Origin: a virus | Reading direction: 5' to 3' (one strand) | IMG/VR virus record: IMGVR_UViG_3300046529_000385 | Span: 1-21,731 of that record | DNA: 21,731 nucleotides | In this document: positions 2-20,680 of the stretch, one piece after another | How the letters are laid out: each line of letters begins with the position of its first letter | Numbering within the stretch: the stretch's first letter is position 1 | The notes under the pieces: model-generated | The model's database searches: none | Seen by the model: only the letters and a program-made list of their open reading frames with translations | Told to the model about the DNA's origin: nothing | Program-made: the position numbers and the translations under genes

Positions 2-577
2 TCGTTCGGAGAAATGTTCGCCGGAATATCAGGAAATCAGGAATGCAGACCCGAGGGGCAAGACATTGCCGTGGGAAGTTGGTGGAGCACTGAACCCAAC
101 GTGGGTCGAGTGGCTAATGGGGTTTCCTTTGAATTGGACCTCATTAGAGAAATAGAAAATGGAAATTGCAACTGTCAGGAAACAGAGCCAGAGGCTCAAG
201 TCATTATCCGGCGCCTGCTGCGCGCAATGTGGGAGTGTGCGCCGCTTGCAGAGACATCATCGGACCTATACCGCAAACGACTTTATGATCTTGTGCCAGA
301 GTTGCCACAAGGAAATCCACGTAGCTTCTGGGTCTTGGGGCCGTGGATCAAGAAAGACAAAGAATTGCGCGATCTGTGGGAACAGCTTTATTCCGCGCCA
401 TTCCACGAAGCACAAGACTTGCAGCAAAGAGTGCTTGAGCGAATTGGGCAGAAGAAACGCCCGGAGGCGTTGGGGTCCAGAGTCAACCGTCTTAGAGCAT
501 TGGGGAACGCGGTCGTCCCGCAAATCCCGGAAATCATCGGTCGCGCAATAATGGAGTCAGAAAAATGCCGATGCTAA
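2..577 (+). CDS. Overlapping-frame ORF ending in a C5-methyltransferase motif X-like segment
   Basis: This frame stays open from the window edge to TAA at 575-577 and overlaps the HNH gene along its whole length. Its ends look like real methyltransferase: SWWSTEPNVGRVANGVS (about 77-127) and RLRALGNAVVPQIPEIIGRA (about 488-547). The second matches motif X of cytosine-5 methyltransferases (GNAVxPxI), which helps form the AdoMet pocket. The roughly 116 codons in between resemble nothing I know and coincide with the HNH gene in the other frame. One reading is a methyltransferase 3' end split by the HNH insertion. Another is a longer fusion protein that is still made. An internal ATG at 14 exists, but the frame is open upstream, so the gene is probably 5'-partial. 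It overlaps the next gene (start 565) by 13 nt. Confidence 0.4.
   Translation, partial: SFGEMFAGISGNQECRPEGQDIAVGSWWSTEPNVGRVANGVSFELDLIREIENGNCNCQETEPEAQVIIRRLLRAMWECAPLAETSSDLYRKRLYDLVPELPQGNPRSFWVLGPWIKKDKELRDLWEQLYSAPFHEAQDLQQRVLERIGQKKRPEALGSRVNRLRALGNAVVPQIPEIIGRAIMESEKCRC
3..155 (+). CDS. C-terminal fragment of a cytosine-5 DNA methyltransferase (5' end outside window)
   Basis: The frame starting at base 3 is open from the window edge to a TAG at 153-155. It reads GGALNPTWVEWLMGFPLNW near the end (about bases 81-140). I recognise NPxWVEWLMGFPxxWTxLE as a C-terminal signature of phage-type cytosine-5 DNA methyltransferases, which transfer a methyl group from S-adenosylmethionine to cytosine. 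The catalytic PCQ and ENV motifs would lie upstream and cannot be seen. An HNH gene begins four bases after the stop, in the same frame. The same DNA read one frame over (bases 2-127) gives SWWSTEPNVGRVANGVS, which also resembles methyltransferase C-termini, so the true frame is ambiguous. I favour this one because it runs directly into the HNH gene's frame. The fragment is too short to say which sequence the enzyme recognises. Confidence 0.6.
   Translation, partial: RSEKCSPEYQEIRNADPRGKTLPWEVGGALNPTWVEWLMGFPLNWTSLEK
128..497 (+). mobile_element. HNH-bearing insert in methyltransferase 3' end, flanked by TTAGAG repeats
   Basis: TTAGAG occurs at 144-149 and again at 492-497, exactly 348 nt (116 codons) apart. 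The 24 bases ending at each copy match at about half of their positions, suggesting diverged copies of one site. Conceptually deleting one copy plus the interval leaves both frames intact. One frame joins WLMGFPLNWTSLE to HWGTRSS; the other joins EPNVGRVANGVSFELDLI to RALGNAVVPQIPE. The span holds the HNH core. I infer insertion of a small HNH cassette; the exact boundaries are uncertain (left 128-149, right 476-497). No group I or II intron features were recognised. Confidence 0.45.
159..551 (+). CDS. HNH endonuclease-like protein with two zinc-finger-type Cys motifs
   Basis: A 130-aa protein. Residues 21-54 form an HNH core: CAQC (21-24), RHH (32-34), ILCQSCHKEIH (44-54). This is the usual beta-beta-alpha metal finger arrangement with two CxxC pairs. 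A second Cys cluster follows (CAIC 70-73, C88, C92), then GRRNARRRW (97-105), typical of phage HNH proteins near methyltransferase genes. The protein probably nicks or cuts DNA and may act as a free-standing homing-type nuclease. The last 24 or so residues (from about 107) do not look like HNH sequence. They read through the 3' end of the interrupted methyltransferase gene. It begins 3 nt after the TAG of the upstream fragment, with no strong ribosome binding site, so it may depend on translational coupling. The HNH assignment is firm; the biological role is inferred. Confidence 0.8.
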   Translation: MEIATVRKQSQRLKSLSGACCAQCGSVRRLQRHHRTYTANDFMILCQSCHKEIHVASGSWGRGSRKTKNCAICGNSFIPRHSTKHKTCSKECLSELGRRNARRRWGPESTVLEHWGTRSSRKSRKSSVAQ

Positions 578-2890: not shown

Positions 2891-3336
2891 GCCGTATCCC
2901 GCTTCACTCGGAGGTCTACCTCATTGCTTCCCTTTGCCACTACAAGGGCGATGATGAGGCAGGCGCCGTAAGACAGTCCGCACGGAAAGCAAACCGTTTT
3001 CAAAATGTCATCGCCAAACTCTGATTCGATACCGAGAAGAATGCTGGCGTCATTGTCCTTGCCAGGATAGTTCGCATACCATTCGAGCAGGCGGGGTTTG
3101 ATTGGATCTAGGTGAGCGAGTGCATCGTCCGTAATAACGAGAGGACTATTCATCACGCCGACGCCAGAGGTGACAACCTCCGACATAGCCCGGCGCATTT
3201 GAAATCCCCACATTGTATCGACTTTCAGTTCGAGGGATCCAAACCTCATTGCGGTTTTGACGATGAAAAGAAAGAGCGTAATCCACGCCCCCACAGACAT
3301 AGCTATGGATATAAACTGCGGGCTAATTTCAATCAT
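2887..3336 (-). CDS. Membrane protein of the lysis module, unknown function (149 aa)
   Basis: I chose ATG at 3336 because it overlaps the Rz1 stop as ATGA; the frame runs upstream to 3363 inside Rz1. The protein begins MIEISPQFISIAMSVGAWIT. It has an N-terminal transmembrane helix (about 8-28), a soluble middle of about 80 residues with Asp, Leu and Pro (ITDDALAHLDPIKPRLLEW), and a second hydrophobic segment near the end (FPCGLSYGACLIIALVVAKG). No family recognised. Lying between the spanins and the holin candidate, it may take part in lysis control, but this rests only on position. Confidence 0.6.
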   Translation of the reverse strand: MIEISPQFISIAMSVGAWITLFLFIVKTAMRFGSLELKVDTMWGFQMRRAMSEVVTSGVGVMNSPLVITDDALAHLDPIKPRLLEWYANYPGKDNDASILLGIESEFGDDILKTVCFPCGLSYGACLIIALVVAKGSNEVDLRVKRDTA

Positions 3337-3803
3337 TCCTTTGGCTTTTTGATCTGCCACCAATGCTTTTTAACCGGCTTGGTGACAGATACCGGAGGGG
3401 GTGAAGTCTTATCTACGTTTGGTATGGGCGGCCATACTTCGGGATCTTCCACAATGATAGGCTTCGGCGCCTGCGCTACTTTCGGCTTTGCCGGCCGGCG
3501 CAACCATGATCCCTTTTTCTTAGGTGCCTTCCATAGCCCGAGCTCCACGCCAACTTCATTATGCACCTTGATCTGGCGCACGGTCGGCGCGGTGTCCTTT
3601 GGACTCCAAGTGATCGGCCTGAACGCAGCCTGGGCGATCCGCTTGGCGCCGTCAGGGTTCACGCTCGAAAGAGTCGGGGCGCATGATGTCGTTAACGTCA
3701 TCAGGAGGAAGCTTGCGCTCAACACGCGAGCGAATGTCCTTGACGTACTTTTCCATCTTCGCCATTTGCGCTTGCTGCTTGTTGACAGCGACATTGTATC
3801 CAT
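3333..3803 (-). CDS. Rz1-like outer-membrane spanin lipoprotein
   Basis: Read from ATG 3803 the protein has 156 aa. Residues 27-41 give VLSASFLLMTLTTSC, a hydrophobic signal with a lipobox ending at Cys41. The rest is proline-rich and basic (PKPIIVEDPEVWPPIPNV, SPPPVSVTKPVKKHWW), as expected of o-spanins, which span the periplasm from the outer membrane. The 5' part overlaps the Rz-like gene in another frame, the classic nested Rz/Rz1 arrangement. The start is uncertain: ATG 3803 has AAAGGG 7 nt before it but gives a long basic leader, whereas GTG at 3725 would give a normal short signal peptide. It couples to the next gene by ATGA. Confidence 0.7.
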   Translation of the reverse strand: MDTMSLSTSSKRKWRRWKSTSRTFARVLSASFLLMTLTTSCAPTLSSVNPDGAKRIAQAAFRPITWSPKDTAPTVRQIKVHNEVGVELGLWKAPKKKGSWLRRPAKPKVAQAPKPIIVEDPEVWPPIPNVDKTSPPPVSVTKPVKKHWWQIKKPKE

Positions 3804-3900
3804 CGTTGTGCCCTTTCAGATAAACACCGCCAAATACGACAGCCACTACGCCACCGAGAACAAACCATCGCGCGATGCCGGCCGCGAAAAATGCCATCAT
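3652..3900 (-). CDS. Rz-like inner-membrane spanin (82 aa)
   Basis: ATG 3900 overlaps the endolysin stop (ATGA); a second ATG follows at 3897. One membrane helix lies at about residues 11-28 (RWFVLGGVVAVVFGGVYL), followed by a periplasmic helix (NKQQAQMAKMEKYVKDIRSR). This fits an i-spanin, which pairs with the Rz1 lipoprotein to fuse inner and outer membranes in the last step of lysis of Gram-negative cells. It is shorter than lambda Rz (153 aa). The identification rests on topology, position after the endolysin and overlap with a lipoprotein gene, not on sequence signatures. Confidence 0.65.
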   Translation of the reverse strand: MMAFFAAGIARWFVLGGVVAVVFGGVYLKGHNDGYNVAVNKQQAQMAKMEKYVKDIRSRVERKLPPDDVNDIMRPDSFEREP

Positions 3901-4808
3901 TGGACTGCTCCTTTTCCGTGGTCGCGCCAATAGTGATAGAGAATCCAGCCGACGAGGCCGAGCTGCACCAAGATAATCCAGAAGATCGGCGAGCGCATTA
4001 CATCGATAAACTGTTGCGCGATCGTCGGCGGGGCATTCGCAACGGTCGTGGCAATGCCCGTGCCCCCGAGGCCAACCGCGCCCCATGATATTTTGCTTTT
4101 GACGATCGGCTTGACCTGTTGCTGAATGACGGCCGCCGTGCTCACCACGTCGGCAATCCCGACATTGGCCATCATCCCGCCGGCTGGCGGTGGAGGGTCG
4201 ATCGATGCGGTCTGCACTAGCGCCATGTCATCCTCGGGCGGCGCCTTGGCCGACAGGGGCATCGTTTCGCTCTCTGTCGAACTCGCCGTCGACGTGGGGG
4301 CCATTTCTTTAGCCGCCGCTTCGACGCGATCGGTCCTCGCCATCCAGCCCCGGCCATAGATCGAAAACTGCTTGAGGGCGCGGTAATATGCCCGCCGGCA
4401 ATCGCTGACTTTGTGGATTAGAAGTTGCGGATCGGGATAGTTCGTTGCGGCGTTGATAGTGACCATACCCATCATGCCATCGACTTGGACGCCGAGAGCA
4501 CGCTGCAGCTCTTTGACTGCAGGTTGCCGCCCGCTGTTGACGCTGGCGTTGAAGAATAAGAGGTCAATTCCGGCCGGAAGATCGTCGCAATAGGGGTTCC
4601 AGTATTTGTCCCGATAGATCGCATTGATGTCATTCTGGGGCGCCTTCCACACGTCAGCCGGGCGGCCTGTGTGGGTTTTTCGATAGGTGTCCCATTCCCG
4701 CTGAATTATGCCTCTTGATGTCCGGCCGCCGTGGTCGCGCGGGTCATCGTCATTGCCGCCTTCTTCGCGCAATATGATCGCTAGGCTGGACTGAAAGTTC
4801 TCTCTCAT
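3897..4808 (-). CDS. GH108-type endolysin with PG-binding domain and C-terminal membrane anchor
   Basis: A 303-aa protein. Residues 8-34 contain the glycosyl hydrolase 108 pattern: EEGG (15-18), then DPRDHGGRTSRGI (22-34). The likely catalytic Glu is E16, which would cut glycan strands of peptidoglycan. Residues about 80-165 match the PG_binding_3 partner domain found in this family (FFNASVNSGRQPAVKELQRA). A Ser/Thr/Pro-rich linker (170-210) follows, then a glycine-rich hydrophobic stretch (241-259) and a clear transmembrane helix (274-293, PIFWIILVQLGLVGWILYHY). Standard GH108 lysins stop after about 170-200 residues, so the tail is an addition. It starts 1 nt inside the previous stop (TAATG). 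Confidence 0.85.
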   Translation of the reverse strand: MRENFQSSLAIILREEGGNDDDPRDHGGRTSRGIIQREWDTYRKTHTGRPADVWKAPQNDINAIYRDKYWNPYCDDLPAGIDLLFFNASVNSGRQPAVKELQRALGVQVDGMMGMVTINAATNYPDPQLLIHKVSDCRRAYYRALKQFSIYGRGWMARTDRVEAAAKEMAPTSTASSTESETMPLSAKAPPEDDMALVQTASIDPPPPAGGMMANVGIADVVSTAAVIQQQVKPIVKSKISWGAVGLGGTGIATTVANAPPTIAQQFIDVMRSPIFWIILVQLGLVGWILYHYWRDHGKGAVQ

Positions 4809-6743: not shown

Positions 6744-7541
6744 TTACTTCTTCAAGACCGTGATCGTGAGAACGATACGGGTCAAAGTGCTTGAACTATT
6801 CACGTTCACGCGAACCATTGATCCGGCCGGAATGCTTTTCGTCCATCCTGTAAGAGTTGTGTCATTGGCGCCGGTGGCACTCGATAGGGTGGGCAAGGCC
6901 GACGCGGTGATCGTTTGCCCTACCGCCGGCGGCGTGCTGGTACTGAAAGCCTTAACCCACACATCGAGCACACACGATCCGCTTATGTCCGAGAGCGTAG
7001 TCGCGGCAATAATCGTGCAAGCGAACGGGACATAAAGATCGCATGTTGAGTTAGCCGCCGGCGTTCCACCACTACCATCAAACGAAAACACAAGCGCGGC
7101 GGTCGTGCGGACATTGTTCTGCCCCGGCGCCACATCGCTAGGCGCATCCGTGGTGTCTGCGGTTGTGCCAATGCCGGCGAGACGTTGCGCTTTCTTCGCC
7201 ATAGATTGCGCCACAGCATCCGTTCCCGAGCCGCCCGTACTCGTTCCCCGCTTTCCCGGTGGCCCCATGTCACCATCGCCGCCGCTCGCGTCGATCGTCG
7301 CGGCATATCCGGCGAGCTGCAACGCGCGATTAGCAGTTGATTTAGTGGTAGATGACGATCCGCTTGGAGCAACCAACGCAACGCCAGCTTGCACGAATCC
7401 AGTGGCGACAAGTTGCTGTGCTACATGCGCAAGCGGCAGTAGTTCCGCATCTCCCGAGCCAGGACTTGTGCGCCCGAGGATATATCCTGCCGGGATACTC
7501 TGCCGGACGCCGCGTACTTTGATGGGAGGAATGCCGGCCAT
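6744..7541 (-). CDS. Modular tail fibre / receptor-binding protein (265 aa)
   Basis: The N-terminus (VRGVRQSIPAGYILGRTSPG, 9-28) is a phrase common at the start of podovirus fibre proteins and probably docks to the tail. A Ser/Gly-rich region includes a short collagen-like stretch (GDMGPPGKRG, 90-99) and two similar helical bits ending in AxxLAGxxxT (ANRALQLAGYA, 70-80; KKAQRLAGIG). From about 150 onward comes a beta-rich tip: VFSFDGSGG, a DLYVPFACTI strand, SCVLDVWVKAF, TLTGWTKSIPAGSMVRV. This tip is a recurring adhesin domain of phage fibres and ends the protein. The start overlaps the large ejection gene's stop (TAATG). Confidence 0.75.
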   Translation of the reverse strand: MAGIPPIKVRGVRQSIPAGYILGRTSPGSGDAELLPLAHVAQQLVATGFVQAGVALVAPSGSSSTTKSTANRALQLAGYAATIDASGGDGDMGPPGKRGTSTGGSGTDAVAQSMAKKAQRLAGIGTTADTTDAPSDVAPGQNNVRTTAALVFSFDGSGGTPAANSTCDLYVPFACTIIAATTLSDISGSCVLDVWVKAFSTSTPPAVGQTITASALPTLSSATGANDTTLTGWTKSIPAGSMVRVNVNSSSTLTRIVLTITVLKK

Positions 7542-10500
7542 TATTTGCCAACCTGATTTAGAACGTCATTGCCTTCCTTCGCGGTCTGAATGAGCCCGTA
7601 GTAAAGGCTGTCGATGAGTTGGCGCTTCTCAAACGGCTTCATGTCCGGGTTCTTGTCGACCATTTGAATGACCTGACTTTGCTCCGTGATCGCCTGCTTG
7701 ATGGCGTCTAGCTGTACAAACATTCGCATCCCGCCAGCGGCCTGTATTTTGTCCATCGATTCTTGATCGCCTTCATTGGCGCGGGCCATGTAAGTATCGA
7801 AATAGATTTTGTTCTCGTTAAACTTCTCATAGAAGTTTTGCACGGATTGAGCGTTGGTTGTCGGGTAGCGGGCGACAAAGGCGCGGACGATCGGAATGTC
7901 CGCCATCGTCTTTTCCGCATGTTCCGGTCCTGGCGGGACAACGCCGGCCTGCCGCAAGCCGTAGTCCGCCGCCTGCAACGTATATGTTCCGAGTGCGCCG
8001 GTCCAACCGCGAATGTAGTTTTCGATAAGCATTGGGCTCGATAAGGCGTTGGCCGTGCCATGTCCCATGCTGCCGGCCTGCCCCACGCGCTCTTGACTGA
8101 TACCTGAAAACGAACTCAATACCTGCCCTAGCTTCTTCGCTGTCTCAGTGGTGTAGTTGCTATATTGATATTCCGGCAATTGGCCTTCGAGCCGTGCCGG
8201 GATGATCGTTCGGTTAGTGAAAAATGATCGGTTTGCCATCTGCTCGAACATAGGGACGAGCGCATTCGGCGTTATATCGCCAACGGTGCTGATCGAAAGC
8301 GACTTGATGAAGCCCTTAAACGCATCCGGGTTTTGATTATAGAAATGCTCAGCTATCCGTTCTGCGCCAGAACCAAACAGAACACCGGTCGAGAACGGTT
8401 TTGGTATCCGCCATATCGTTCCGTTGTTGACCTGATATTGACCGTCAACTAGGCGCCACTGATCGCGCGGTCTAACCTTCGCAAGGTCCTCCGGCGAAGG
8501 TTCCCATCGATCGGTCGGGATGACCCAAAAAACGTCCTTCTCCCATTCGGGTAGTTCCTGATACCGGCTATCATCCTTGTTTGCCCACCATAGGGCGAGC
8601 GATGGAATCGTAATGCCGACGCCGATCTTGATGCCCGTACTTACCGGCGTTTTTGCAAGCGCCTCAGCAATCTGCATCGTGTCTTGAATTTTGGCATTCA
8701 TAAATGCGGAGATGGCATTCCACGACTTCATCTTCGCGCCCATACGGGCGATGTCGATTCCGGTGTTGCGCGATACCCATGCCGCCTCAAGAATGTTCTT
8801 TTTATCGGCGCCGGTTGCACGGCTCGCGGCGTCAAGCGCGGCCTGTCCCGCTTCCCATGTCACGCCGTCGCGTAGTTGCATCGCGCCGCCTTGCGGCGTT
8901 AATGCCGGCAAGGTCGTGCCGGTTGCTTCCGATGTTTTGCTTTCCAGATCACGCAGAGATCGCTTGAACCCGCCAAGGTGGTTCATGTTCATGGCAAATT
9001 CGGTGAGCATTTGCAGCGGACTGATTGCCGATTGCCATGCCTGCCCGGTGATGCTGCTGATCTTGGAAAGCGGCGTCATGTTCGGGTTTTGAATGACGTT
9101 CCAAGACCGCGCCATCAGTCCCGATTTGTCGTTTAACTCGGAAAGGCTTTCCTGCAGGAAACGCCGGTCTAGCCCGACAAGCGTGGCGTTTGCACCGCCG
9201 CCCTGTTGCCATTTCCAATAGTCCGCGTCTTTCGTAATGAGCCCAACAAGGCCCTTGAGTGAATCGGCTGGCGTGTAAACGCCGTCATTCGTTTTGATGA
9301 ATGAGTAGATGAAGTCGCGGATCGTATGCCGGATGGCAAACTCTGGATCGAGCACAGCTCCGGCGCGGAGTGTCGATGAGAGTGGTTCGAGCAATTTTAT
9401 AAACCAATTCGTCGTGCTGCGATCGAGCCCCTTCATTGCGTTGGCAATGTCAGGATCCACTTTGTACGATATGCGCTTTCCGTCACGGAAAATGCTGATC
9501 TCGCCGGGCTTCGGTGGCGTTGCCATGTCCTGCAGGCTTGAGATTAAATCCGGGTCTGCCTTGGCCCCTTCATGTTCTAGGAAGCCTGCAATGTCGGCGG
9601 CGTCGCCCTTGTCTTGCTTGCCTTTGAACTGTGATAGTTCTTCCTTCGCCGCGCCCTGCTTTTCCAACATGTCAATGAGCTTGGTGCCGACAAAATTCTT
9701 TTCGGCCATCGCCGTGAACAGGTAGGTGTTCTTAATGATGTTCTCGATCGGATCGACAACCTTGAGCTCAGACCCGACAAGCGCCTTGATAGGATTGCTG
9801 GCCTGCATACTCTGCCCGCTGATGCCGTTGGCGCCGGCCATCATGTCCTCGCCCATGACGCGATGGAACGGGACATAGAACGAATACTTGTCCGTCATTG
9901 CGGCGAAGCCTTTATCCGAAATCACGCCGCTGTCCCTGAGATATTGCGCAACGTTCCTTTGATAAGTGACCAACTTTTCCAGCTCTGGACCAAATCTCCC
10001 GATTGCGCTCTCGCCGTAAACCTGAATAGCCTCTTTGTCGAAACCTGTTTCAATACCGAGTCTTTCTAATTCCTTCGCGTGAGCTGCCGATACGAACGCA
10101 CGGAAGTCGTCCATTTCGCCTTTGATTGGATCGAGTATTTCTTTCAGTGGCGGGCCATTCGGCTTGTATGTATTGAAATCGAACGTGCCCTCATTGAGCA
10201 TGTGATCGGCTTTGCCGGTCCATCCTGAAAACAGCCGTGCCAACTTGTAGGGATCTTCTGCCGCCGCAAACTCCGCGCCATCGCGCGCTTTGCTTATAGG
10301 AAAGAACCGATCGACTACGTTGGTGTAAATCTTAGCGAGCGTGATCCCCTTACCCGAGCTGGCTTGGTCAACGCTGATGTGTTCGAGAATTTTGTCCCTG
10401 GCATCATCGACCGACATAGGCTTGCCGCCTTCTGGCGGTTCGCCTGCCGCAGACATTTCTTTGCCGGGCGGTTCTTCGGGCGGTGCCGGTGGTTTCCCCG

Positions 10501-11266
10501 CGCCTTCTGCCTCTGCCGTTTCTTCGCCATAGACCGCCGGCAACTTATCATCGCGCGATAAGACTTCCTGCTTCAACACAGGATCGGTCTGTGCATCGTG
10601 GGCAATCTCTGATGGCGTAACGCCATGCTCATCCCAAATGCGCTCTAGCTTCTTGAGCACTTGCGGAGCGACCTCATCGGGCGAAAGCACGGTCGCCGCG
10701 TTATGGAAGTCCTGCGCTTCCGGCAATGGACCCACAGGCTCTTTCCGCATCGTGCCGTCAACCGGATCAGGCTTGAGCCTTGAAAAGCTTCCCGCCTCGT
10801 CCGGCATGAGTGGACGACCGGCGTGCGGGCCAAAGATGAATGCGGCATTAAACGCCTTGCCGTAATCTTCATCGCCCGGCTGTCCCTTGCCGGGAATGTC
10901 CGTGAAGTCCTCGCGCCGTAGGCCAGGACCGACAAGGCCATTGTCCCATGCGTCTTTACCCATCTGGAAAGCGCCGGCAATTGCCTCGGGACCGCTGGCG
11001 ATGAACGAGCTAACGCCACCTAGCGCGGCCTGCCCATAACTTCCCTCTTTAATCTTCTGTGCGCTCCACTCCGCGAGACGTTGTGAATATGGCTTCTTAG
11101 ATTGTTCCTCAAACGATTGCCGTGCCGCCTCGCCCTGTGAGACGCGATCGATAAACGCCGGCGGTATGGCGCCAGAACGCGGTTCAGTCGGCCCAAAGTC
11201 CGTAGGCGTATTATCGCTAGGAGCCTGCGCTATCGGTGCAAAGTCGTTTGGGGCGGTGTCAGGCAT
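7541..11266 (-). CDS. Large internal virion (DNA ejection) protein with LPD38-like region (1241 aa)
   Basis: Position and size (1241 aa against 1318 in T7 gp16) suit the large internal core protein that enters the host to form the DNA-ejection channel. The N-terminal 300 residues are Pro/Glu-rich and low in complexity. Around residue 460 is YVPFHRVMGEDMM; around 640 is LDPEFAIRHTIRDFIYSF. These resemble the LPD38 polyvalent-protein domain that I recall from large phage proteins. A hydrophobic stretch near 885 (GVGITIPSLALWWANK) may contact membrane. No lysozyme or transglycosylase motif was found; the neighbouring gene supplies a peptidase instead. It starts in a TAATG overlap with the upstream gene. 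Confidence 0.75.
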   Translation of the reverse strand: MPDTAPNDFAPIAQAPSDNTPTDFGPTEPRSGAIPPAFIDRVSQGEAARQSFEEQSKKPYSQRLAEWSAQKIKEGSYGQAALGGVSSFIASGPEAIAGAFQMGKDAWDNGLVGPGLRREDFTDIPGKGQPGDEDYGKAFNAAFIFGPHAGRPLMPDEAGSFSRLKPDPVDGTMRKEPVGPLPEAQDFHNAATVLSPDEVAPQVLKKLERIWDEHGVTPSEIAHDAQTDPVLKQEVLSRDDKLPAVYGEETAEAEGAGKPPAPPEEPPGKEMSAAGEPPEGGKPMSVDDARDKILEHISVDQASSGKGITLAKIYTNVVDRFFPISKARDGAEFAAAEDPYKLARLFSGWTGKADHMLNEGTFDFNTYKPNGPPLKEILDPIKGEMDDFRAFVSAAHAKELERLGIETGFDKEAIQVYGESAIGRFGPELEKLVTYQRNVAQYLRDSGVISDKGFAAMTDKYSFYVPFHRVMGEDMMAGANGISGQSMQASNPIKALVGSELKVVDPIENIIKNTYLFTAMAEKNFVGTKLIDMLEKQGAAKEELSQFKGKQDKGDAADIAGFLEHEGAKADPDLISSLQDMATPPKPGEISIFRDGKRISYKVDPDIANAMKGLDRSTTNWFIKLLEPLSSTLRAGAVLDPEFAIRHTIRDFIYSFIKTNDGVYTPADSLKGLVGLITKDADYWKWQQGGGANATLVGLDRRFLQESLSELNDKSGLMARSWNVIQNPNMTPLSKISSITGQAWQSAISPLQMLTEFAMNMNHLGGFKRSLRDLESKTSEATGTTLPALTPQGGAMQLRDGVTWEAGQAALDAASRATGADKKNILEAAWVSRNTGIDIARMGAKMKSWNAISAFMNAKIQDTMQIAEALAKTPVSTGIKIGVGITIPSLALWWANKDDSRYQELPEWEKDVFWVIPTDRWEPSPEDLAKVRPRDQWRLVDGQYQVNNGTIWRIPKPFSTGVLFGSGAERIAEHFYNQNPDAFKGFIKSLSISTVGDITPNALVPMFEQMANRSFFTNRTIIPARLEGQLPEYQYSNYTTETAKKLGQVLSSFSGISQERVGQAGSMGHGTANALSSPMLIENYIRGWTGALGTYTLQAADYGLRQAGVVPPGPEHAEKTMADIPIVRAFVARYPTTNAQSVQNFYEKFNENKIYFDTYMARANEGDQESMDKIQAAGGMRMFVQLDAIKQAITEQSQVIQMVDKNPDMKPFEKRQLIDSLYYGLIQTAKEGNDVLNQVGK

Positions 11267-13560
11267 TATCTACTCGCTGTCACTGACGATCCACCCTTGC
11301 CACTCCATTCAAAGTGCATGGGATCGCGTGAACGGCCGTTCCAATCTCCGCCCCAGATCAAACCGTATCTAGCGGCAATCTGTGCAACATCTTTCGGGAG
11401 ATTGTCCTTTGCGGAATGGAATGGATTTTTGTCCGGGTTAATATCGATCGCGTTGCCGAAGGCGTGCTCTGACATGCTGGTAAAGCTGCCGCGCTTCATG
11501 CGGTTGGAGTAGCCGCCGATGTCGTCAACCTTGTATCCCTTGCGTTCGAGCTCATCGAGGAAGCCTTGGAAGTGCGGGGCCGCTGCCGCGTTCACTTGAA
11601 CGGTCTGTCCCTGTGTCGTAATCGTCTTTAGGTTCTCGCCAATTCCGCCGTCGATGCCTGCTTGTTCGGCGCGGCCAGAGCTAAAGAAATTCTTGTCGGC
11701 ATGAGCATCAACGCCCATCGCCCTATTGATAGCGTTCTGCCCCTCTGACCCTCCCCCCTCCGGCGAGAAGTTCATCTTCTGCGGATAGCCGTCCGTGCCG
11801 TAAATCTGTTTCGTCTTTGGGTCTTGGTACATGCCGGTTGACGGGCTTCGCAGAACGCCCGGTATCTTCGCAGCCGGTGTTCCTGACGGCGGTCCCGTTG
11901 GCTGTTGTGTCTGTGTGCCGCCTGGCTGAGTACCAGGCTGTCCCTGCCGCAGTCTATCCGACAGGTTCTTAACGCTCTGACTAATCGGCGTTTGGAACCG
12001 CTGCATGTTCTCAGGCGAGCCCATGTAGTCGGGATTGCCCGGTGTGATTGCCTTGCGCGGATCGTCGCCACGTTGCAGGAGTTGTTGCTGCTTGTCGCGA
12101 ATTGCCATCCGGTAGTCGTACACTTGCGCATCGCCCGATGGATCGAGCTTGCCCATGAGCGGATTAGACTTTGAGATAAAGCCCTTGCGCGAATCCAAAA
12201 ACTTCTCGGTATCGGTGTTCAGCCGATCGCCCTCCGGCGTCGATTGCCGGGTAATCATATTGGTCAGTTCATTGGAATCTGCCCGACTTAGCGATCCAGG
12301 CGTTCCTGGCGCCTTTTGTCGAGCCTGCCTAATTTCGTCAAGATTGGTGATCTTGTTAGGATCGCCATAGGGCAGGTTCACCCGCGATGCCAAATCGGAG
12401 AACGTCGCCCTGGAAATATCGGTCTGATGCTGCGTTGGCCCTGTCACCAACTGATTAAATTCTTTGCGTGCGTTTATCAGATCGTCGCCCTGATATTTCT
12501 TATTGATGGCGTCGAGGGGATCGGCAACATATTTTGGATCAGTCTTAGGCAAAAGACTGTTCGTATATAGGTCGCCTATGTCTTTATCACGCGCGATTGC
12601 GTCAAGGTTCTGTTGATGCTTGTCGAGCCGGTCTTGATCTTGAATGCGCTCGTTTGAAAACTTGCGGATAGCTTCTTCGAGCTTCGGCCGCTGTCCGCCA
12701 ACGATGCTGTCCCATCGCGAGTCATTCAAAGTCCGCAGCGCATTTTCCGTATGGCCGGCGACAACATCGTTATACATGCTCTGTTGAAGCACTTGTAGTT
12801 TGGCTTGATCGCGTTTTTGATCGACAACAAGTGTGCCCTTGGCGCCGACAGCCCCGGTGAATGTCCTTGTTACAGCGTCGAAAGCGCCGTCGATGTGATC
12901 CATCGCATCGGGCAGTGTGAGGTCGCCACGGCCCGTTGCAGCGATAGTTTCATTCACCGTGCCATCCGTGGTGTGAATGGCGTGATTGACCGCAACCTGT
13001 CCGTCGATCGCCGCCGCTGAAACCGCTAGGCGCCGATTGCTTACGGCGGCCTGCAGCGCCATCCGGTCGCGCGCCTTTTGGCTAACGTTCTGGCCTGTGA
13101 TGCCCCCAATGAGCCGATCGAGGAAACTACTATGATTGTCGATGATGTCGGACGCCGACGTTGCATACTGTCCTGGCGACGGCACTTGGGCATCTTGCGG
13201 AAATGCCTTGTCAACGCCAACGCCGGGATGATCGCTTATCGGAGCGCCTTCCGCAGACCTTGGCGTACCGGCTCCGACGATGCCGCCTTGAGCTGCAATC
13301 TCGGCCTGGGTCAGTTGGTTTTGAAAATCAATCTCGGCAAGCGCATCGGTATGTTGCTGCGCCTGTGCTTGAAACTCACCAAGGCCCTCGCCGATCGCGG
13401 AAATGCCCTGACCAATCGAATGCCCGGCTTGCGACAGGTACTTCTCTTGTAGGCCGGCATTGCGCTCCTGCACGGCGCCGAGTTCGCGGTAGGCCGCACT
13501 CCCGGCTTCTGATGGAGTGATCTTGCCTTCGCCGGCGTCGAAAGTCTTGATGTTAGGCAT
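11266..13560 (-). CDS. Internal virion protein with C-terminal M15 peptidase (764 aa)
   Basis: In size and position it matches T7 gp15 (747 aa). The first 500 or so residues are helical and Gln/Ala-rich (LSQAGHSIGQGISAIGEG, FQAQAQQHTDALAEIDF), as in ejection proteins. A Pro/Gln/Thr linker (QPGTQPGGTQTQQPTGPP) follows. The last 130 residues form a zinc D-Ala-D-Ala carboxypeptidase/VanY-type M15 peptidase: SEHAFGNAIDIN at 697-708 and DPMHFEW at 746-752, with probable zinc ligands H699, D706 and H749 and catalytic E near 751 or 698. It would cut the peptides of peptidoglycan during DNA entry. The fusion of lytic peptidase to this core protein differs from T7, where the lytic activity sits in gp16. 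Confidence 0.8.
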   Translation of the reverse strand: MPNIKTFDAGEGKITPSEAGSAAYRELGAVQERNAGLQEKYLSQAGHSIGQGISAIGEGLGEFQAQAQQHTDALAEIDFQNQLTQAEIAAQGGIVGAGTPRSAEGAPISDHPGVGVDKAFPQDAQVPSPGQYATSASDIIDNHSSFLDRLIGGITGQNVSQKARDRMALQAAVSNRRLAVSAAAIDGQVAVNHAIHTTDGTVNETIAATGRGDLTLPDAMDHIDGAFDAVTRTFTGAVGAKGTLVVDQKRDQAKLQVLQQSMYNDVVAGHTENALRTLNDSRWDSIVGGQRPKLEEAIRKFSNERIQDQDRLDKHQQNLDAIARDKDIGDLYTNSLLPKTDPKYVADPLDAINKKYQGDDLINARKEFNQLVTGPTQHQTDISRATFSDLASRVNLPYGDPNKITNLDEIRQARQKAPGTPGSLSRADSNELTNMITRQSTPEGDRLNTDTEKFLDSRKGFISKSNPLMGKLDPSGDAQVYDYRMAIRDKQQQLLQRGDDPRKAITPGNPDYMGSPENMQRFQTPISQSVKNLSDRLRQGQPGTQPGGTQTQQPTGPPSGTPAAKIPGVLRSPSTGMYQDPKTKQIYGTDGYPQKMNFSPEGGGSEGQNAINRAMGVDAHADKNFFSSGRAEQAGIDGGIGENLKTITTQGQTVQVNAAAAPHFQGFLDELERKGYKVDDIGGYSNRMKRGSFTSMSEHAFGNAIDINPDKNPFHSAKDNLPKDVAQIAARYGLIWGGDWNGRSRDPMHFEWSGKGGSSVTASR

Positions 13561-19700: not shown

Positions 19701-19712
19701 AGCAACGCACTC
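19701..19712 (-). repeat. Intergenic element GAGTGCGTTGCT, copy A
   Basis: It overlaps the TGA stop of the 219-aa gene by 2 nt on the minus strand and lies 29 nt upstream of the adaptor gene start. Its extended form (19698-19713) shares 16 bases with copy B. Confidence 0.6.
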
Positions 19713-20370
19713 ACTCGATCGCTGTAGGGATGCGGGTGACTTCCAAATAGCTGACCGGGAAGCCGGCCACGATCCACTCATAGGTACCGGGAGGAAGCGA
19801 TAGAGTCTGTTGACCGGCGCCTAGGGTGATTTGCGTGGCGCGGGCCGTATAGGTCGTCCCGTCGAGGCCGAGCTTCTTGAGGTCGACGGTCCCCGAGTTG
19901 GCCGTGAGCGTAGCGGCCGTCCACGTCGCCGATGTGACCGTTGTGGTACTGGTGATGTTGCCGCCGGTTCCGATCGTGGTGGCGTAGATCGTGACTGAGT
20001 GATTTGTGACTTGCGTCGGCGTTTGGGCCTGTGCCCGCGCCTGCACCGCAGGGCTTACGGTCCCGGCGAAGTAGTCGGTTCCGGCCGTCCCCGTGCCGTT
20101 GAGGGTGGCGATCAGGTGGCCAAGCGTAACGTCCTGGCTGGCGCCAAGTTTAACGTCATTGGCCTGTGCCATTGAGGATTCAAAGCGGTAGGTCACAGAC
20201 CCTATAACGACAACCTGTCCGGCCGTGGGGTTGGTGCCCATCGTAAACAGGCCGGATAGGGCGGATAGGCTTTCCACCCAATAAGAACCGCCGCGCAGCA
20301 CAAAGGGGCCGATCGTTCCGGCTGCTACTGCTTGGCGAAGATCGCCGTCGCCGCCAAAATAATCAGACAT
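19711..20370 (-). CDS. Virion protein paralogue with inserted domain (219 aa)
   Basis: Both ends match the neighbouring 99-aa protein. Residues 1-34 carry GGDGDLRQAVAAGTIGPFVL and RGGSYW; the last 60 or so carry DLKKLGLDGTTYTARATQIT, GQQTLSLPPGTYEWIVAGF and YLEVTRIPT. Between them about 115 residues have been inserted: GLFTMGTNPTAGQVVVIGS, YRFESSM, DVTLGHLIATLNGTGTAGTD and SVTIYATTIGTGGNITST. I recall this inserted unit as a mobile domain of phage tail or surface proteins. Its place between capsid-side and tail genes suggests a virion surface protein. Start: ATG 20370, 10 nt after the previous stop. Confidence 0.65.
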   Translation of the reverse strand: MSDYFGGDGDLRQAVAAGTIGPFVLRGGSYWVESLSALSGLFTMGTNPTAGQVVVIGSVTYRFESSMAQANDVKLGASQDVTLGHLIATLNGTGTAGTDYFAGTVSPAVQARAQAQTPTQVTNHSVTIYATTIGTGGNITSTTTVTSATWTAATLTANSGTVDLKKLGLDGTTYTARATQITLGAGQQTLSLPPGTYEWIVAGFPVSYLEVTRIPTAIE

Positions 20371-20380
20371 TGGCTATCCA

Positions 20381-20680
20381 TCACTCGGTAAGTGTCGGGA
20401 CGCGGGTGATCTCAAGGTAGTTGGCGGTGAAGGTCGCCACGACCCATTCATAGATGCCTGGGGCCAGGGAAATGGTCTGTTGGCCTGCCGTGGCCGTGAT
20501 CTGCGTGATGCGCGCGGTGAAGGTTGCCCCGTCAGGCCCCCGGCGCTTGAGGTCTATAGTACCCGAGCCTGTGGACTTGGTTTCGATCCAGTAGGAGCCG
20601 CCGCGCAGGACAAATGGCCCGATGGTGCCGGCCGCCACGTTCGAGCGAACGTCTCCGTCTCCACCGAGAAATTCAGCCAT
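20381..20680 (-). CDS. Small virion protein, paralogue of the next gene (99 aa)
   Basis: It carries GGDGDVRSNVAAGTIGPFVL (6-25) and RGGSYWIETKSTGSGTIDLK followed by ARITQITATAGQQTISLAPG and YEWVVATFTANYLEITRVPT. It looks like a compact beta-sandwich and is the plain form of the 219-aa protein next to it. No family name is known to me. It lies upstream of the tail adaptor gene, so a head-decoration or head-tail surface role is likely. The start ATG 20680 is 9 nt after the upstream stop with only a weak Shine-Dalgarno. Confidence 0.65.
   Translation of the reverse strand: MAEFLGGDGDVRSNVAAGTIGPFVLRGGSYWIETKSTGSGTIDLKRRGPDGATFTARITQITATAGQQTISLAPGIYEWVVATFTANYLEITRVPTLTE

Follow-up and report, generated by a model that had tools for sequence, protein, structure and literature searches.

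Two readings in the first 577 bases

The first 577 bases of the window raise the question why two overlapping frames of one strand should both read like a cytosine-5 methyltransferase, with an HNH nuclease between the recognisable phrases, and whether both of them code. The window is a whole IMG/VR fragment of 21,731 bases that starts within a gene, so that the 5′ part of this gene is absent. The frame of base 2 is called frame f, and its product alpha or the large chain; the frame of base 3 is f+1, and its product beta or the small chain. All features of this gene are on the plus strand. The 3′ part of alpha (2–577) is cut by the contig start and reads SWWSTEPNVGRVANGVS over the bases shared with beta, with EPNVGRVANG at 92–121. 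It continues from WWSTEPNVGRVANGVS through the HNH gene to RLRALGNAVVPQIPEIIGRAIM from position 488, where motif X is found (RLRALGNAVVP, 488–520), and no stop intervenes. The 3′ part of beta (3–155) reads GGALNPTWVEWLMGFPLNWTSLEK, with NPTWVEWLMGFP at 93–128; its reading LNPTWVEWLMGFPLNWTSLEK is followed by the stop TAG at 153–155 and then by the HNH reading frame at 159–551. The two signatures meet at bases 90–140, which give C5-methyltransferase motif IX in f+1 (LNPTWVEWLMGFPLNWT), while largely the same bases give EPNVGRVANGVS in frame f, the frame that ends with motif X (GNAVVPQ).

Family searches assigned frame f to phrog_32758 (1e-14) and phrog_363 (5e-7), both DNA methyltransferases, and positions 3–152 of f+1 to phrog_26627 (unnamed, 5e-7) and to the DNA methyltransferase family phrog_1008 (3e-5). 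A tblastn search of annotated phages with the window's own readings gave no match at 1e-3; queries with the broader relatives did. Reading frames and family searches bear out the initial annotation where it described two overlapping methyltransferase-like frames with an HNH nuclease between them and motif X downstream. Very probably the region belongs to a C5-cytosine methyltransferase gene that is dual-coded, and represents its 3′ end; for the full-length reading we rely on relatives, chiefly L002 and L009 (76–80% identical).

The full-length gene in relatives

A scan with the frame f protein of the window returned 80 viral loci. In most loci with a recognisable phrase, EPxVGRVAxG in f and NPxWVEWLMGFP one base on are read from the same bases, and this coincidence of motifs is more than chance because the same two phrases coincide in most relatives. 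Close relatives found through the motif X frame alone nearly all lack stops in either frame over the greater part of the gene; in the near relative L002 the beta frame is open for 297 aa. Longer stretches of relatives show in frame f the phrases DLFSGIGGF, GGFPCQ, ENV and RDRVW, followed by GNAVVPQ, which identify a C5-methyltransferase with motifs I–VIII upstream of the part seen in the window. Their f+1 frame, open over most of the gene, reads SSWRTSQLCLVEG..FSETWPRSGMMRNGTAYQLPPLVP..LWPTPTARD..LNPTWVEWLMGFPLGWT.

The alpha chain of L065 matches PF00145 at 4e-44, and motifs I, IV (PCQ), VI (ENV), VIII and X were found in relatives; the window has the motif X part only. Against the Pfam DNA_methylase profile, alpha covers positions 1–177 of 324 and motif X. 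Motif IX and the recognition region between motifs VIII and IX, which PF00145 would place in the same chain, are not part of alpha, and motif IX is found in f+1. A Pfam search with beta gave no match.

The HNH gene and its insertion site

The HNH endonuclease reading frame (159–551, 130 aa) is in the beta frame, and its final 20 codons or so are the former beta tail. The protein reads RHH..N..CQSCHKEIH and contains a C4 zinc finger: the HNH core with CxxC...CxxC (CCAQCGSVRRLQRHHRTYTANDFMILCQSCHKEIH) is encoded at 216–320 and the zinc-finger-like segment (CAICGNSFIPRHSTKHKTCSKEC) at 366–434. The HH..N..H core with its metal-binding cysteines is thus present, and the family search returned the nuclease families phrog_1271 and phrog_2340; in the Pfam HNH search the window protein is under the cut-off and the L015 protein over it. 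The stop of beta, three bases and the HNH start ATG occupy 153–161, an arrangement that likely reflects translational coupling and recurs with equal or similar spacing in other insertions. Only a weak Shine–Dalgarno sequence precedes this start, which is a point against the reading.

Empty sites in relatives read ..ATGGGGTTCCCGCTCGGGTGGACCGCCTTAGAG.., whereas the window has TGGACCTCATTAGAGAAATAGAAAATG, the HNH gene and TCAACCGTCTTAGAGCATTGGGG, with the insertion between imperfect copies of ACCnnnTTAGAG. The left copy of this 12-nt direct repeat (ACCTCATTAGAG, 138–149) marks the insertion border and is identical to the right copy (ACCGTCTTAGAG, 486–497) at 9 of 12 positions, for which reason an exact target duplication is not claimed. 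The distance between the copies is 348 nt, or 116 codons, so that frame f is kept; as the insert contains no stops in f, alpha would still be translatable to motif X. The same HNH element is found in L002 and L009 (HNH 80% identical). A different HNH gene stands immediately behind the beta stop in L015 and its near-identical copies, and a third type nine bases behind the beta stop in L023 and L306; in L292 the HNH is fused to beta with no stop between. At least three HNH types thus occur at the same point and in the beta frame, 0–9 nt behind the beta stop or fused to beta. Their distribution is patchy at one site, with empty sites among relatives, as in homing genes. Another homing-nuclease kind was seen in the same gene family: L313 has a LAGLIDADG-like segment (YAAGLIDGEGCISI..) inserted in a nested gene at about alpha residue 120, in frame f+1, with frame f open.

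Insertion of the HNH gene could have killed the methyltransferase; the open alpha frame would then be due to chance and the HNH gene a relic. The initial annotation considered that the enzyme may now be inactive if motif X is needed. The fold could indeed be disturbed by 116 residues added shortly ahead of motif X. However, frame f was open through the HNH gene in all six genes tested, with at least three insertion types among them, and synonymous shuffles reproduced this with P values of 0.0004–0.010 for each gene. Moreover, the window and L002 retain the HNH (80%) and alpha (76%) readings alike. Loss of the enzyme is therefore unlikely, and the claim of inactivity found no support. Since frame f stays open through the HNH gene where shuffles rarely allow it, the sequences point to a continued need for the motif X of alpha in HNH-bearing genes.

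Start of beta

Separate initiation of beta was examined in members with a GC content below 0.56 and an internal start, defined as the first start codon after the last f+1 stop. A Shine–Dalgarno sequence of at least 4 nt at proper spacing precedes 81% of the 47 internal beta starts. The corresponding value is 10% for f+2 and 20% for shuffles, none of the 200 shuffles exceeding 39%. A second kind of start was found in 42 of 179 genes, where the sequence [AGT]TGAATG places the beta ATG four bases past the start of alpha: the TGA closes f+1 and the ATG reopens it at once.

Alternatively, ribosomes translating alpha could enter beta through a programmed frameshift, so that a fusion with motifs I–IX would be made and no separate initiation would be needed. 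This mechanism would suit the offset of exactly +1 between the frames, and also those members in which f+1 is open almost from the alpha start. It is nevertheless very unlikely, in view of the [AGT]TGAATG genes and of the low-GC members, in which f+1 stops occur up to alpha codon 53–63 or so and are followed by a start codon with a Shine–Dalgarno sequence.

Identity of beta; staggered and fused forms

Phages in which the two readings are arranged differently indicate what beta is. Arthrobacter phage Andrew (gp43/44) and the Streptomyces phages Euratis (gp33/34) and Samy (gp49/50) have staggered pairs: alpha stops after motif VIII, and the f+1 protein alone carries the PTP repeats, motif IX (EWMMG or EWLMG) and motif X. 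In Mycobacterium phage ShiLan gp70 and about 25 actinobacterial relatives all motifs are in one frame, the motif IX–X half having shifted into the main frame. The types of arrangement are thus connected by phage genes of staggered and of fused form. The beta family phrog_1008 matches residues 196–388 of the single-frame ShiLan gp70 (2e-61), and hhalign of beta with the fused methyltransferases gave 96.4% (E 1.2e-9) at motif IX. The fused profile in turn aligns with TRKLHPRECARVMGYPDSY...KQFGNSVV of M.HhaI, which are motifs IX–X in the expected order, at a score that is by itself sub-threshold, and an AlphaFold model of the fused protein (core about 90 or above) matches M.HhaI with E 2.8e-14. 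Together, these matches identify beta as the motif IX half. Taken alone, beta gave an AlphaFold model with a pLDDT of 63 and no fold match, and the top match of its profile in the PDB, motif IX of DRM methyltransferases, is too weak to stand alone (E 0.25). The variable PTP region of beta probably contains the recognition part.

Two single loci illustrate how frames may change. In ShiLan (L095, 6344–7513) the f+1 frame of gp70 still reads the N-terminal beta part (SSWKMW..FSETWPPSGMTRSGAAFELP..LLPTP), which, judged by its sequence, is a visible relic of frame fusion. In Mycobacterium phage Seabastian (L090, 1501–2260) gp75 and gp76 are both annotated as DNA methylase, and the alpha and beta readings switch frame after about 120 codons; this one f+2 case has the appearance of a nested gene that a frameshift has divided in two.

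It was proposed in the initial annotation, as one of two alternatives, that an old frameshift had left two recognisable readings, and one could suppose that only one of them is used in the window phage. This proposal holds for a different branch: in ShiLan gp70 and the about 25 similar actinobacterial proteins the IX–X half is in the main frame and a beta remnant is open in +1. It does not hold for the window's family, where both frames are constrained across very diverged phages, and for the window phage we regard it as most unlikely.

Selection in both frames

Evidence for dual coding comes from selection statistics. The set found through alpha consists of 54 non-redundant genes of L002–L088, for which f+1 was not used in retrieval (except L002, found by HNH). 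The longest f+1 open run has a median length of 93% of the gene in this set; when synonymous codons are shuffled, the figure is 40%. The open run was significant (p ≤ 0.01) in f+1 for 43 of the 54 genes, in f+2 for one, and for two of 56 control genes; L058 is one clear exception, being open in f+2 instead. The f+1 stops were mapped in 179 non-redundant nested genes. They are common to alpha codon 60 or so, hardly occur between codons 75 and 240, and reappear in numbers past motif IX: per 100 alpha codons they fall from 6.2 to 0.28 over codons 0–75, amount to 0.00–0.04 over codons 75–240, and then rise to 1.5–7.9. In f+2 of the same genes 0.9–11.7 stops per 100 codons are found throughout.

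Substitution patterns agree with this map. For 69 disjoint pairs the ratio of alpha third-position to first-position differences is 3.19 before beta, 1.74 over codons 60–165, 0.75 (95% CI 0.66–0.86) at motif IX and 2.29 at motif X. The subset found only through f shows the same pattern (3.19, 1.56, 0.74 and 2.45). Codon choice at EPxVGRVAxGVP also deviates from that in all alpha genes of the set, with frequencies of 0.91 vs 0.14 for GGT, 0.97 vs 0.19 for GCT, 0.99 vs 0.36 for CAT and 0.98 vs 0.23 for GGG; at the shared motif, codons that maintain the f+1 reading are used, including some that the set otherwise seldom employs. In the close pair of Salmonella phage S9-5 and E. coli PT62, most changes (27) leave the alpha protein alone unaltered, against 7 that leave beta alone unaltered, which indicates that outside motif IX beta is less constrained than alpha.

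The least probable explanation considered, that only alpha is real, f+1 being passively open owing to base composition and to the conservation of residues in alpha, with phrog_1008 and other beta families as misannotations, could appeal to the frequency of long spurious +1 frames in GC-rich genomes and to the annotation of alpha alone in most isolates examined, but it conflicts with the shuffles, the stop map, the position ratio below one at motif IX, the codon choice, the Shine–Dalgarno sites, and the Andrew, Euratis and Samy pairs, in which alpha is closed and beta alone has motifs IX and X. Shuffles, codon-position ratios, codon choice and Shine–Dalgarno sites instead indicate translation of, and selection on, both frames. 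As far as sequence can tell, few examples of long overlapping genes show selection in both frames as clearly as this pair. The suggestion that the region really codes in two frames is thereby strongly supported for the window's family. Conservation of one frame only, the pattern expected of single-frame use, was looked for and did not occur; both frames are constrained in relatives.

Distribution

Of the 315 loci collected, 219 are of the nested +1 type and 36 of the staggered +1 type; in 34 the readings are co-extensive or fused, and one locus is in f+2 (Seabastian gp75/76). These counts are not prevalences because part of the set was retrieved by beta. This retrieval bias touches the counts of nested loci, not the 54-gene shuffle test or the ratio subset found only through f. 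Searches of a phage collection gave 145 records for one beta query and 1468 for one alpha query. Nested, unannotated beta genes are present in Mycobacterium phage Spikelee (gp77), Synechococcus phage S-H1, Sulfitobacter phage phiGT1, Acinetobacter phage ABMM1, Salmonella phage S9-5, Lacticaseibacillus phage R23.9, Vibrio phage 1.091.O and a Leptospira plasmid; in most isolates examined only alpha is annotated. A prophage copy in E. coli PCP07014 (L327, 301–1062), annotated as a pseudogene, is interrupted in alpha (..LLV*IGL) and, at almost the same position, in beta (..CLFE*DLQ), so that neither chain is left intact.

Proposed mechanism

In view of the above, the following mechanism can be considered. 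Frame f would be translated to the large chain alpha, with motifs I–VIII and, at the C-terminus, motif X. The f+1 frame would give the nested small chain beta, consisting of the variable PTP-repeat region and motif IX, from its own start codon inside alpha. Most likely, alpha and beta would assemble into one enzyme, as in M.EcoHK31I, with which the earlier suggestion of an enzyme made from two pieces is in agreement. Because both frames constrain the same bases, the DNA of motif IX is almost frozen, which would make it a good target for a homing endonuclease. In the window the HNH gene has inserted right behind motif IX, in the beta frame. Since it follows a product that is already translated in its frame, a simple route to its translation exists, by termination and restart or by direct fusion: in the window, ribosomes ending on beta at TAG 153–155 could restart at ATG 159. 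Alpha would be read through the HNH gene to motif X, and the about 116 extra residues could form a tolerated loop.

Sequence statistics support two selected frames, internal starts with Shine–Dalgarno sites in relatives, an HNH gene in the beta frame and an open alpha frame. We infer the heterodimer, the role of beta as recognition part, reinitiation, homing of the HNH gene to an empty site, and retained activity. It is rather likely that one stretch of DNA encodes parts of three proteins, namely two methyltransferase chains and a homing nuclease that uses the beta frame, and that unrelated homing nucleases, which must keep the other frame open, have repeatedly settled at its frozen target. 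If this is correct, an unannotated motif IX subunit would also be encoded by many genes of phages and prophages that now carry the annotation of one cytosine methyltransferase, and conclusions drawn from the sequence of the annotated gene, or from its expression by itself, would be misleading.

Other features of the window

Several other features of the window were recorded. On the plus strand, a small open reading frame at 565–663 (MPMLIILFLLLAGCTTQQDEW..) encodes a short lipoprotein-like peptide and overlaps the end of the methyltransferase frame, and 1126–1905 encodes a phosphoadenosine phosphosulfate reductase domain protein (PF01507, 1e-11; phrog_424, 1e-25). On the minus strand, two overlapping frames at 3333–3993 match the Rz-like spanin families phrog_1275 and phrog_1026; this spanin pair is of the usual overlapping type and adjoins a glycosyl hydrolase 108 lysin at 3897–4808. 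Two very large proteins are encoded on the minus strand at 7541–13560, one of 1241 aa with an LPD38 polyvalent-protein domain and one of 764 aa with a C-terminal peptidase M15. At 19711–20680, also on the minus strand, similar modules (GGDGD.R..VAAGTIGPFVLRGGSYW) open two adjacent genes, apparently a duplication.

Comparison with known systems

The small chain of M.EcoHK31I is encoded in another frame within the gene of the large chain. The phage family shares this feature, which is seen at full length in relatives and as the 3′ end in the window. M.EcoHK31I has motifs I–VIII and X on the large chain and motif IX alone on the small polypeptide (PMC3404938). Compared by description, the phage chains are alike in having motif IX alone on the second polypeptide and motif X on the large one. 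M.EcoHK31I belongs to a restriction–modification system, whereas the genes described here are in phages and prophages; its predicted recognition domain is said to be on the large chain, whereas in the phage family the variable region is apparently on beta. With natural intermediates (nested, staggered and fused), M.EcoHK31I would change from a biochemical curiosity into an example of a widespread arrangement. In M.AquI the enzyme is also made of two chains, split between motifs VIII and IX (PMC3404938). The staggered pairs Andrew gp43/44, Euratis gp33/34 and Samy gp49/50 resemble this organisation, but the window's family differs in having motif X on the large chain and a small chain that is nested and not downstream. 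The phrog library labels both phrog_363, which matches alpha, and phrog_1008, which matches beta, as DNA methyltransferase, and does not state that the same bases encode both. In the open-access literature, to which the search was confined, no report of phage-wide dual-frame methyltransferase coding was found.

The ShiLan domain is an out-of-frame HNH in a phage methylase, the translation of which was listed by its authors as an open question (PMC11855218). It lies in frame +2 of an amino-methyltransferase and has a GTG start 18 bp into the insert (PMC11855218). As in the window, an HNH is inserted in a phage methylase in another frame, the host frame is open, and there is no sign of an intron or intein. 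ShiLan gp65 was considered as the same gene and rejected, its sequence being that of an unrelated methyltransferase. It is of the amino-methyltransferase type (DPPY motif), with the HNH in +2 and no host-gene product known in the HNH frame. The window HNH does not belong to the ShiLan domain, as host enzyme, frame and start all differ. In the window's family, by contrast, the HNH shares its frame with the small chain and lies directly behind beta; coupling to beta would offer a testable explanation of how a homing nuclease within a methylase can be translated although it is out of frame.
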